Made by a program: the position numbers and the translations under genes | Shown: piece by piece, positions 6,618-10,035 of the stretch | Position numbering within the stretch: position 1 is the first letter of the stretch | Layout of the letters: each line of letters begins with the position of its first letter | The notes under the pieces: generated by a model | The model's input: only the letters and a program-made list of their open reading frames with translations | Told to the model about the DNA's origin: nothing | Database searches by the model: none | DNA from: Candidatus Moraniibacteriota bacterium | GTDB lineage: Bacteria; Patescibacteriota; Minisyncoccia; Moranbacterales; UBA9337 | DNA length: 45,273 nucleotides | Assembly (NCBI GenBank): GCA_026985555.1 | Contig: JALSQF010000003.1 | Location: 126,605-171,877 of the forward strand | Reading direction: 5' to 3'

Positions 6618-7496
6618 ATGAAAAAAGAAATGAAAACCAATCATTGGTTAGGGATAATTATTACGGGAATTATGTTAGGTGCTTCTATCCAATTTGCAAT
6701 GGCTTGGACAGAACCTTCCTCAAAGCCTCCCAAGGGTAATTTGGCTGCACCACTCAATGTGGGGAATAAATTTCAAGAAAAAGCAGGAGGATTGTTTATC
6801 AATAGAGATAATGTATCTGGATTTGGGTTGATGAATAGAAATTATTTAATTAATTATGGTAGTATTATTGCTATGCATGGGGGAAATGTTATTGCGTCAA
6901 AAGATGTACGTGCCTCTGGTGATGTAATAGCTGATGATCAGGTGTATGCAGGAAGCGGTAAGTATAATCTAATATTAGGAACAGTAAATTCTGTTAGTGA
7001 TTATAGAAAAGTAGATAATATAGGTGGTCCTTGGATTTATGCTTTTAATTCTTCTCCTGACGCACATTCTTTAAATGGATCTATAGGAATTAGAGTTCGT
7101 CCTTTAGGTAGCCAGGCTGGATTGGTAGTAGGAAAAGGTAAGGGAAGATGGGCTGATGTATGGGCAAGGACGTTTCATTATACTTCTGATAAAAGATTAA
7201 AAAAAGACATTAAGACAATTAATAATGCTTTAGAAAAAATAACTAAAATTAGAGGAGTAGAATATAAAATGAAAGATGGTAATGTTCCAGGAATGGGGGT
7301 AATTGCTCAAGAAATTGAAAGTCAATTTCCCGCTTTAGTGAGCACTGGTCCTAGTGGCTATAAAACCGTTGAATATAATGGTTTTATAGGTGTTTTTATA
7401 GAAGCTTTTAAAGAGCAGCAAAAGCAAATAAAAGAACAACAAAAAGAAATTGATGAACTTAAACAAGCTCTTCAAGAGCTAAAAAATAGACAGTAG
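6618..7496 (+). CDS. Exported fibre-like protein with C-terminal Peptidase_S74 (intramolecular chaperone) domain
   Basis: TSDKRLKKDIKTINNALEKITKIRGVEYKM...GVIAQEIESQFPALV...KTVEYNGFIGVFIEAFKEQQKQIKEQQKEIDELK is a typical S74 domain with C-terminal coiled coil; N-terminal signal segment. Confidence 0.9.
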   Translation: MKKEMKTNHWLGIIITGIMLGASIQFAMAWTEPSSKPPKGNLAAPLNVGNKFQEKAGGLFINRDNVSGFGLMNRNYLINYGSIIAMHGGNVIASKDVRASGDVIADDQVYAGSGKYNLILGTVNSVSDYRKVDNIGGPWIYAFNSSPDAHSLNGSIGIRVRPLGSQAGLVVGKGKGRWADVWARTFHYTSDKRLKKDIKTINNALEKITKIRGVEYKMKDGNVPGMGVIAQEIESQFPALVSTGPSGYKTVEYNGFIGVFIEAFKEQQKQIKEQQKEIDELKQALQELKNRQ

Positions 7497-7521: not shown

Positions 7522-7552
7522 AAAACCAACCTTTTGGCGAGGTTGGTTTTTA
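7522..7552 (+). terminator. Intrinsic terminator after S74 protein gene
   Basis: AAAACCAACC-ttttggcga-GGTTGGTTTT followed by T. Confidence 0.85.
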
Positions 7553-7818: not shown

Positions 7819-7847
7819 TTGACAAAAGTTAAAAATTAATTTACACT
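7819..7847 (+). promoter_or_regulatory. Predicted promoter for the rpsF operon (TTGACA-N17-TACACT)
   Basis: TTGACA 7819-7824, TACACT 7842-7847. Confidence 0.7.
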
Positions 7848-7872
7848 AGTAAAGTTAAATAAAATATAATTT

Positions 7873-7963
7873 AAAGTCCCTTTTTATTTCACCTCTAAAT
7901 CTTAAGAGGATAAGATAAAAACGTGCCGATAAAGTAGCAGGCAAGGGTCTTTATCGGTTTTTT
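7873..7963 (+). promoter_or_regulatory. Structured 5' leader of rpsF with terminator-like hairpin (candidate attenuator / S6:S18-type leader)
   Basis: Helix tttttat/ataaaaa (7881-7887 with 7915-7921) enclosing cctct/agagg (7892-7896 with 7905-7909); then CCGATAAAG/CTTTATCGG (7926-7934 with 7949-7957) followed by TTTTTT. Confidence 0.65.
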
Positions 7964-7989
7964 AGTAAGTAAAATAAATTTAAAAAAAT

Positions 7990-8643
7990 ATGGAATATGA
8001 AATTTTGTATTTAATAGGAGAAAGTCAAGAGAATAATTTAGTAACAATTAAAAAAGAAGTAGAAGGTATTATAATTAAACAGGGAGGAAAATTTTTAGAA
8101 GAAGAATGGATAGAGCAAAGAAAATTAGCTTATCCTATTCAGCACGAAAAAAGAGGAACTTATATAGCGCGTCGTTTTGTATTACCTGATAAAGATCAGC
8201 GATTTAAAGATAAGATTAAAAAAGATTTCATTGGTAATATTACTCGTAAATTAAATTTGCAAGATAATATTTTACGTTTTATAATAGTAAAAGCAGAAGA
8301 ATTGCCGCCTTTAGAAAATAAAGAAATTGCAGAAATTAAGCCAGCAAAAGACAAAAAGGAAAATTTAAAAAACAATAAAGAAGAATCAAAGATAGAAAAG
8401 AAAAAAACTGATTCAAAAACGAAAAAAACTGAAACAACAAAACTGAAAAAAGAAGATAAAATAGAAAAAAAAGAAGTTGATAAAAATAAAGAAACTAAAG
8501 CAGAAGTTAAAAAAGATATTCTAGAAGAAAAAGATAAAATGTCTTCTCAAAATACAGAAAACAAGAAAAAAGAAGATTCAACACTAGAAAGTGATAAAGG
8601 TGATGATATTGATAAGAAGTTAGAAGAAATTTTAAACATTTAA
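7990..8643 (+). CDS. rpsF: 30S ribosomal protein S6 with long charged C-terminal extension
   Basis: MEYEILYLIGE...EEWIEQRKLAYPIQHEKRGTYIARRF...RKLNLQDNILRFIIVK; located upstream of ssb and rpsR. Confidence 0.93.
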   Translation: MEYEILYLIGESQENNLVTIKKEVEGIIIKQGGKFLEEEWIEQRKLAYPIQHEKRGTYIARRFVLPDKDQRFKDKIKKDFIGNITRKLNLQDNILRFIIVKAEELPPLENKEIAEIKPAKDKKENLKNNKEESKIEKKKTDSKTKKTETTKLKKEDKIEKKEVDKNKETKAEVKKDILEEKDKMSSQNTENKKKEDSTLESDKGDDIDKKLEEILNI

Positions 8644-8696: not shown

Positions 8697-9212
8697 ATGA
8701 ATGTTAATAAAGTAATTTTAGTAGGTCGTTTAACTCGTGATCCCGAATTAAGAAATACAAATTCTGGACAACCGGTAGCTACAATTAATTTAGCTACTAA
8801 TCGTTTTTGGACTGATCAATCGGGACAAAAACAAGAACAAACAGAATTTCATCGTGTAGTTATGTTTGGAAGATTAGCAGAAACAGTTAGCCAGTATTTA
8901 ATTAAAGGCCAAGAAGCTTACATAGAAGGACGTTTGCAAACTAGAAGTTATACGGATAAAAGTGGAGTAGAAAAATATACTACAGAGGTAATAGCGAATG
9001 ATATTCAATTTGGAAGTAAGCCTCAAGGATCAAATTCTGGAACATATAATCAAAACATTTCTAATCAAAATCAAGCAGTAGAAAAAAATAACGAAAATGA
9101 TACAAAAAATAATGTATCAGGAGAAACTAAAAATACATCAGAAGAAGAAATACCTACTATAAATTTAGATGAAGAAGATGATGAAATAAAAATTGAAGAT
9201 GTTCCTTTTTAA
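8697..9212 (+). CDS. ssb: Single-stranded DNA-binding protein
   Basis: MNVNKVILVGRLTRDPELR...FHRVVMFGRLAE...GQEAYIEGRLQTRSY; acidic tail ending EDVPF. Confidence 0.97.
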   Translation: MNVNKVILVGRLTRDPELRNTNSGQPVATINLATNRFWTDQSGQKQEQTEFHRVVMFGRLAETVSQYLIKGQEAYIEGRLQTRSYTDKSGVEKYTTEVIANDIQFGSKPQGSNSGTYNQNISNQNQAVEKNNENDTKNNVSGETKNTSEEEIPTINLDEEDDEIKIEDVPF

Positions 9213-9262: not shown

Positions 9263-9469
9263 ATGGAAAAGAAAAGTTGTTATTTTTGTCAAAATAAAAT
9301 AGATCATATTGATTATAAAGATGCTTATCTTTTAAGACGTTTTTTGAATTCTCAAGGAAAAATTTATCCTCCTAAACGTTATGGCACTTGCGCTAAACAT
9401 CAACGTCGTTTAACTCAAGCAATTAAAAGAGCTAGAATTATGGCGCTAGTTCCTTTTGTGATTAAATAA
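9263..9469 (+). CDS. rpsR: 30S ribosomal protein S18
   Basis: IDYKDAYLLRRFLNSQGKIYPPKRYGTCAKHQRRLTQAIKRARIMALVPF. Confidence 0.97.
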   Translation: MEKKSCYFCQNKIDHIDYKDAYLLRRFLNSQGKIYPPKRYGTCAKHQRRLTQAIKRARIMALVPFVIK

Positions 9470-9477
9470 TTCTTATT

Positions 9478-10035
9478 ATGTTAGGTATTTCAGAAATTAA
9501 GTCAGGAAAAAATATTGAACTTAATGGTCAGCCCTATAAAGTTCTTTCTCACGAACATTCAAAAATGGGAAGAGCAGGGGCTGTTTTAAGGACAAGATTA
9601 AAAAATTTAAAAACAGGAGCTGTTTTAGAAAAAACTTTTCAAGGAGCAGATAAAGTAAAAGAAGCTGATTTAGAAATTAATCGGGCACAATATCTTTACA
9701 AAGATAATAATGACTATATTTTTATGAATCAGGATAATTTTGAGCAATTTACGATTACTAGTCAAAATTTAGGTGATAGCGCTAATTATTTAATAGAAGG
9801 AACTGAAGTTAATATTTTAATTTATCAAGGAGAACCTATTAACATTGAATTACCGGTTAAAATGAAGTTTAAAGTGGTTGATGCGCCTCCAGGAATAAAA
9901 GGTGATACAGCTTCAGGTGGTAATAAATTAGTAACATTAGAAACCGGAATGAAAATTAGCGCCCCTCTTTTTATAAAAGTTAATGACACAGTGATAATTA
10001 ATACAGAAAAAGGAGAATATGTTTCTAGAGGTTAA
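9478..10035 (+). CDS. efp: Translation elongation factor P
   Basis: EIKSGKNIELNGQPYKVLSHEHSKMGRAGAVLRTRLKNLKTGAVLEKTF...; 185 aa with EF-P C-terminal domain. Confidence 0.95.
   Translation: MLGISEIKSGKNIELNGQPYKVLSHEHSKMGRAGAVLRTRLKNLKTGAVLEKTFQGADKVKEADLEINRAQYLYKDNNDYIFMNQDNFEQFTITSQNLGDSANYLIEGTEVNILIYQGEPINIELPVKMKFKVVDAPPGIKGDTASGGNKLVTLETGMKISAPLFIKVNDTVIINTEKGEYVSRG

Follow-up and report, generated by a model that had tools for sequence, protein, structure and literature searches.

A conserved leader with two exclusive folds precedes rpsF-ssb-rpsR in Moranbacterales and is probably an attenuation-type variant of the S6:S18-binding leader

We analysed a window of 45,273 nucleotides, which is part of a contig of a 741-kb genome of the order Moranbacterales, a group of ultrasmall bacteria. 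The rpsF-ssb-rpsR operon of this window is preceded by a leader RNA that is conserved in related genomes, and our computations established the covariation of its helices and the mutual exclusivity of two folds that are balanced in energy, one of them ending in an intrinsic terminator. We read the leader as a conserved transcription attenuator of the operon, most likely an attenuation-type variant of the S6:S18-binding rpsF leader, with a probability of about 0.7. The position of the leader and its resemblance to known leaders suggest that it is likely to bind the S6:S18 heterodimer, whose subunits are products of the operon itself, and the hairpin presumably terminates transcription in vivo.

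The features of the leader and of the operon are collected in Table 1. The promoter is composed of a -35 box TTGACA (7819-7824), a 17-nt spacer and a -10 box TACACT (7842-7847). Promoter-like matches in the AT-rich stretch around the leader are not above chance; the position of this promoter is conserved in relatives. The H2 hairpin is formed by an outer stem (UUUUUAUUU, 7881-7889, with AGAUAAAAA, 7913-7921) and an inner stem (CCUCU, 7892-7896, with AGAGG, 7905-7909), separated by an internal loop with CA (7890-7891) on one side and AUA (7910-7912) on the other. The terminator T has a 9-bp stem (7926-7934/7949-7957) followed by T6. The competing helix H1 pairs AAAG-U-CCCUU (7873-7882) with AAGGG-U-CUUU (7943-7952), with one U.U mismatch and the inward extension CCCUU/AAGGG. 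The H2 hairpin is present in both alternative folds, that with H1 and that with T. The promoter, the two-part helix at 7881-7921 and the terminator-like hairpin with its TTTTTT had all been described in the first-pass annotation, and each was found where it had been placed, with pairs of H2 and arms of T that covary in relatives. Likewise, the TGCC/GGCA pairing is located at 7924-7927/7940-7943, as had been claimed, while the CCCT/AGGG pairing (7878-7881/7944-7947) exists but is only the inner half of the longer, conserved antiterminator helix H1.

Table 1 Features of the rpsF leader and of the genes that follow it in the window.
Feature	Position	Strand	Basis or remark
Leader RNA, whole	7855..7963	+	3' end is the last T of the tract; start site estimated at ~7-8 nt past the -10 box (inferred)
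Sigma-70-type promoter TTGACA-N17-TACACT	7819..7847	+	10/12 consensus matches; equivalent spot kept in relatives
H1 5' strand (antiterminator strand) AAAGUCCCUU; order consensus AGAAAGUCC	7873..7882	+	Pairs with 7943-7952 in the minimum-energy fold
H2 hairpin	7881..7921	+	Folding; two-sided compensatory change at every H2 pair in relatives
H2 internal loop, 5' side	7890..7891	+	CA in the window; CG in 90/91 parsed leaders
Terminator 5' arm CCGATAAAG	7926..7934	+	Its CC sits where known rpsF leaders have the S18-recognised CC(G)
H1 3' strand AAGGGUCUUU	7943..7952	+	Overlaps the terminator 3' arm
Terminator 3' arm CTTTATCGG	7949..7957	+	Alignment, covariation
Intrinsic-terminator T-tract	7958..7963	+	Sequence
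rpsF, ribosomal protein S6, first gene controlled	7990..8643	+	PF01250, 45.3 bits
ssb, single-strand binding protein	8697..9212	+	PF00436, 134 bits
rpsR, ribosomal protein S18	9263..9469	+	PF01084, 85.4 bits
EF-P (elongation factor P) gene	9478..10035		Starts 8 nt past the end of rpsR

Considering how closely the EF-P gene follows rpsR, it may be under the control of the rpsF leader, too. Past its Pfam domain (residues 3-101 of 217), the S6 protein of the window has a tail rich in Lys and Glu and about 115 residues long, and comparably long S6 open frames are found in relatives. The gene upstream of the leader (6618-7496) encodes a C-terminal Peptidase_S74 (endosialidase chaperone) domain, which is typical of tail-fibre-like proteins, and a terminator-like hairpin, AACCAACC..GGTTGGTTTTT, lies just past its end at about 7525-7552.

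When the window leader was folded as a single sequence, it was only modestly better than its shuffled versions (z -2.04; 7 of 200 shuffles equally good), and the case for it rests for this reason on its relatives. The H1 duplex of the window taken alone did not differ significantly from shuffled sequence (p 0.15). The two folds of the window leader are predicted to be balanced, at -22.2 kcal/mol with H1 versus -22.0 kcal/mol with T, and this leader is the only one of the 91 parsed with CA, not CG, in the H2 loop. We regard this copy as functional but drifting, functional because it remains balanced and has kept its terminator.

A search of 142 related genomes for protein S6 (PF01250) found it in 132, and for the majority of these the DNA preceding the gene was compared. 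Nearly all genomes of the order share one layout before rpsF. Its 5' part consists of the promoter TTGCCA/TTGACA-N17..18-TGNTANNNT, then ACAA, the H1 strand AGAAAGUCC and a hairpin with the internal loop CG/AUA; its 3' part consists of a short A-rich spacer, a terminator arm led by CC, the strand complementary to AGAAAGUCC, the second terminator arm and a U-tract. The distance from promoter to leader is the same in relatives as in the window. The rpsF promoter is unusually constant order-wide, with TTGCCA, the extended -10 element TGNTANNNT and ACAA near the expected start, and it could possibly serve as an order-wide promoter consensus for reporters.

A covariance model, R1, built from 22 relatives as seeds with the window left out, matched the window at 7867-7966 with 42.8 bits and an E-value of 7.3e-8, and the leader was its sole match in the genome of the window. 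Matches to R1 (E <= 0.01) were obtained in 112 of 131 genomes of the order; 9 of the other 19 have no detectable rpsF in the assembly, and in several more a divergent leader is visible by eye. R1 gave no match in genomes of other orders of the class, and in 287 sampled genomes of the phylum (Patescibacteria) it gave two, both belonging to members of Moranbacterales. The leader is a conserved element of this order and, in the genomes sampled, is restricted to it. Further R1 matches in relatives (L170-L176) were dismissed as chance, except for an exact duplicate in one genome, G099. There (L169, G099:C27:5500-9400), a 162-bp stretch with promoter, leader and terminator is duplicated exactly, the leader copies lying at 6687-6780 and 8962-9055; one copy precedes rpsF and the second lies 2.3 kb upstream, before a 664 aa PEP-synthase-like gene. 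Either the entire cassette was transplanted naturally or the duplicate is an artefact of assembly. A pattern search gave matches outside the order at L124, L127 and L129, and a few chance matches are expected for the pattern used.

The first-pass annotation had proposed that the rpsF upstream regions of relatives be collected and examined for covariation, and this comparison upheld the helices. In 94 aligned leaders all 16 modelled pairs of H2 outer, H2 inner and T change on both sides; 90.7% of the cells are paired and 431 cells are compensatory. The covariation score of this alignment is 0.751, compared to at most 0.183 with the partners slid, where the alignment was fitted to the structure and leans towards it. 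A structure-blind MAFFT alignment of the 22 seeds gave the same picture (0.456 versus at most 0.155 slid). The core of H1 is nearly invariant across the order, so no covariation is possible there, while its outer positions carry CG, UA, AU, UG, GC and GU pairs. In 79 of 101 leaders the H1 5' strand has a downstream partner that is better than those offered by shuffled sequences (p <= 0.05); since the search retains the best duplex, the pair counts are biased towards pairing. For the reality of the leader, this comparative evidence, i.e. the R1 match and the covariation in relatives, is decisive.

Because the 3' strand of H1 occupies the space between the two terminator arms and extends into the stem, H1 and T compete. 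For 91 leaders, the median difference between the predicted energies of the two folds is 0.1 kcal/mol. In the 77 cleanly parsed leaders the median difference is 0.2 kcal/mol, the spread is smaller than in all 2000 permutations, and the strengths of H1 and T are correlated (r 0.57), a correlation that is partly built in since both share a strand. In family f9, a variant that includes L021, L028 and L009, the H1 partner is apparently shifted onto the terminator 3' arm and the U-tract (AAAUAAAGCCC/GGGUUUUAUUU in L028; GAUAAAGCCC/GGGUUUUAUU in L021); mutual exclusion is thereby preserved although the letters have changed, which fits an attenuator. An intrinsic terminator with stem and U-tract is found before the first gene (7926-7963) and covaries in the 94 leaders, and H1 is a conserved competing helix that excludes it. 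Together with the conservation of both helices and the heavy covariation, these features support the attenuator anatomy that the first-pass annotation had suggested.

According to the mechanism that we propose, the nascent RNA would fold H2 first. It would then form either H1 (AGAAAGUCC with GGACUUUCU), leading to antitermination with the genes on, or the terminator T (CCNN..NNGG-U-tract), with the genes off. One strand is common to H1 and T, whose energies are tuned to near equality, so that a bound protein could tip the balance between them. In predicted co-transcriptional folding of 76 leaders, H1 precedes the emergence of the terminator arm from the polymerase in 68; both an ON and an OFF design predict this order, which does not decide the direction of control.

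The S6:S18-binding rpsF leader (S6S18CBM, which corresponds to RF02893) was reportedly described by Matelska in 2013 and Fu in 2014, and is also the subject of Babina et al. 2015. The E. coli leader scores 110 bits with the Rfam model RF02893 (RpsF_leader), whose gathering score is 37 bits. This model had no match on the window and none above its cut-off in 124 genomes of the order. Below this cut-off, it scored best in the order on both copies of the leader in G099, which are identical (22.1 bits, E about 0.01) and align in register with H1, H2 with GACA, and the GAAUAAUCCG bulge, and it is unlikely that the top match would land on a leader of about 100 nt by chance. RF02893 is narrow, matching E. 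coli only among 14 control genomes, so that missing its cut-off leaves kinship possible; R1 in turn gave no match with the E. coli leader. The first-pass annotation had offered a divergent S6:S18 leader or an unrelated new one, and this in-register alignment favours the former. Phe_leader, BTnc060 and other weak Rfam matches in the leader were rejected as chance, being far below cut-off and inconsistent in register.

In E. coli, the S6:S18 complex represses translation and binds the rpsF leader, a binding that requires H1, H2 and two conserved cytosines; a putative Shine-Dalgarno sequence lies within H1 (PMC4647458). Both leaders precede rpsF of an S6-(SSB or PriB)-S18 operon and share an outer helix H1, a hairpin H2 with an internal loop and a 3' bulge before the H1 3' strand, where many but not all of the Moranbacterales leaders have a candidate for the CC(G); GACA and GAAUAAUCCG are aligned in one relative (G099). 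The H1-H2 architecture upstream of rpsF is present in the order, as seen from the H2 covariation, the H1 duplex and the G099 register. CC is found at the aligned bulge place in 73 of the 94 leaders. At 7925-7928, within the bulge that separates H2 from the 3' strand of H1, the window reads GCCG; several of its close relatives, such as L032, L033, L035 and L037, lack CC in the bulge. The pairs made by this CC at the 5' end of the terminator almost never have G as their 5' base, and the third base (CCN) varies freely. The Moranbacterales leader differs from RF02893 in the letters of H1 and in the nearly invariant CG of the H2 loop. Furthermore, its H1 3' strand overlaps an intrinsic terminator rather than a Shine-Dalgarno sequence, and its CC, which is not universal, doubles as the terminator 5' arm.

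Positions 719-721 of the E. coli 16S rRNA are CCG and are read by S18. In the order, the 16S rRNA has GGAAYACCNAAGG at 713-725, and CC with a free third base is common to leader and rRNA, but the letters of H1 do not follow those of rRNA helix 22. Positions 719-721 are mostly CCA, with G, C or T in some genomes, only the two Cs being constant (L136 2160-2180 and the 16S of relatives). Two proposed resemblances were rejected. The CG of the H2 loop is not a counterpart of the rRNA CCG, with the CA of the window co-varying with rRNA CCA, as the loop stays CG while the rRNA is mostly CCA. Nor is AAAG-containing H1 (AGAAAGU), whose letters are identical in the 16S of the window, a copy of this rRNA helix, which varies order-wide while H1 does not.

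As for the direction of control, we lean slightly, at barely better than even odds, towards autogenous repression, in which excess S6:S18 would lead to termination. The lean has prior grounds only, since characterised ribosomal-protein leaders generally repress. The bound form is OFF in E. coli, where the Shine-Dalgarno sequence is hidden by H1, whereas in Moranbacterales H1 hides terminator letters and CC is the terminator 5' arm, so that a bound form like that of E. coli would be ON. Should S18 read this CC, the RNA could be bound or could terminate, but not both, and simple negative feedback is left unexplained. Repression would then need a different binding, for instance one with H2 and the invariant 5' strand of H1 at its centre, which would keep H1 from forming; otherwise, the loop would be a rare positive one.

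It is conceivable, although we do not hold it probable, that S6:S18 antiterminates: the complex would bind H1, H2 and the CC bulge as in E. coli, free CC from the terminator and turn the operon on, in positive autoregulation or as an assembly-state gate. The fold with H1, H2 and bulge is the one that aligns with RF02893, CC varies less than the other pairs of the terminator stem, of which the next one varies freely, and the third base of CCN is free in the leader, as is position 721 in the 16S rRNA of Moranbacterales. Nevertheless, about one fifth of the leaders, close relatives of the window included, are without CC at this place, a CC at the base of a terminator may simply add to the strength of the stem, and the sign would be opposite to that generally known for characterised ribosomal-protein leaders. 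We suggest tentatively that S6:S18 could be the antiterminator of its own operon, in which the rRNA-mimicking fold would be the antiterminator and the S18-read CC the terminator 5' arm, a repressor site having been rewired to an ON switch.

An unrelated leader of independent origin that would control the same gene in a like manner, with the nearly invariant H2 loop (CG/AUA) and the H1 5' strand as sensor and S6:S18, S18 alone or another factor as ligand, seems to us rather doubtful. The best match of RF02893 in the order falls on the leader in register, with GACA and GAAUAAUCCG in common, which argues for kinship; against this stand the lack of a match at the Rfam cut-off and of any R1 match in E. 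coli, and the fact that the CG of the H2 loop (90/91) and AAG-CC are more constant than the bulge CC. Independent S6:S18 leaders are also known, e.g. in Chlorobi (PMC7247131). That T, the most obvious feature, is an ordinary constitutive or leaky terminator damping a strong promoter without any ligand is improbable, because it leaves unexplained the near-invariant H1 5' strand and H2 loop, the order-wide pairing of H1, its energy balance with T and the re-created H1 of f9. Least probable by far is that the hairpin ends an upstream or antisense transcript unconnected with rpsF control: an upstream gene does end at 7496, but it seems to own the terminator-like hairpin described above, a conserved promoter lies between that hairpin and the leader, and the leader precedes rpsF throughout the order.

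An attenuation-type S6:S18 leader has parallels in other systems. The B. subtilis L10(L12)4 leader works by attenuation where E. coli uses translation control, and the protein binds and stabilises a separate anti-antiterminator (PMC4538822). This rplJL leader resembles the Moranbacterales one in belonging to a ribosomal-protein operon, in opposing an antiterminator to an intrinsic terminator and in coming from a family controlled at translation in E. coli; in contrast, no third structure (anti-antiterminator) was identified in the Moranbacterales leader. The S6:S18 leader candidate of Chlorobi (Eckert and Weinberg 2020), described as unlike the rRNA site, is also lineage-restricted, precedes rpsF-ssb-rpsR and has S6:S18 as its predicted ligand, according to its published description (PMC7247131). 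In architecture the leader is also like ON-type riboswitches with terminators, in which one helix serves both as sensor and as antiterminator and has a strand in common with the terminator. In these riboswitches, such as the pbuE adenine riboswitch, the ligand is a small molecule and not a protein, and the sequences are unrelated.

No earlier description of the Moranbacterales leader was found in Rfam 15 or in the literature searched. Babina et al. 2015 considered other expression mechanisms not unlikely for rpsF leaders in different phyla (PMC4647458), and the leader, with its transcription terminator, offers a concrete candidate, spread over a whole order, for the diversity of mechanisms they expected. 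The R1 covariance model is, in addition, a ready marker for Moranbacterales. RNA regulation in Patescibacteria is hardly known, and the leader adds a candidate case there, in which S6 and S18 probably control their own transcription in Moranbacterales. Should the antiterminator be the site that S6:S18 binds, the classic feedback loop would have its sign reversed.
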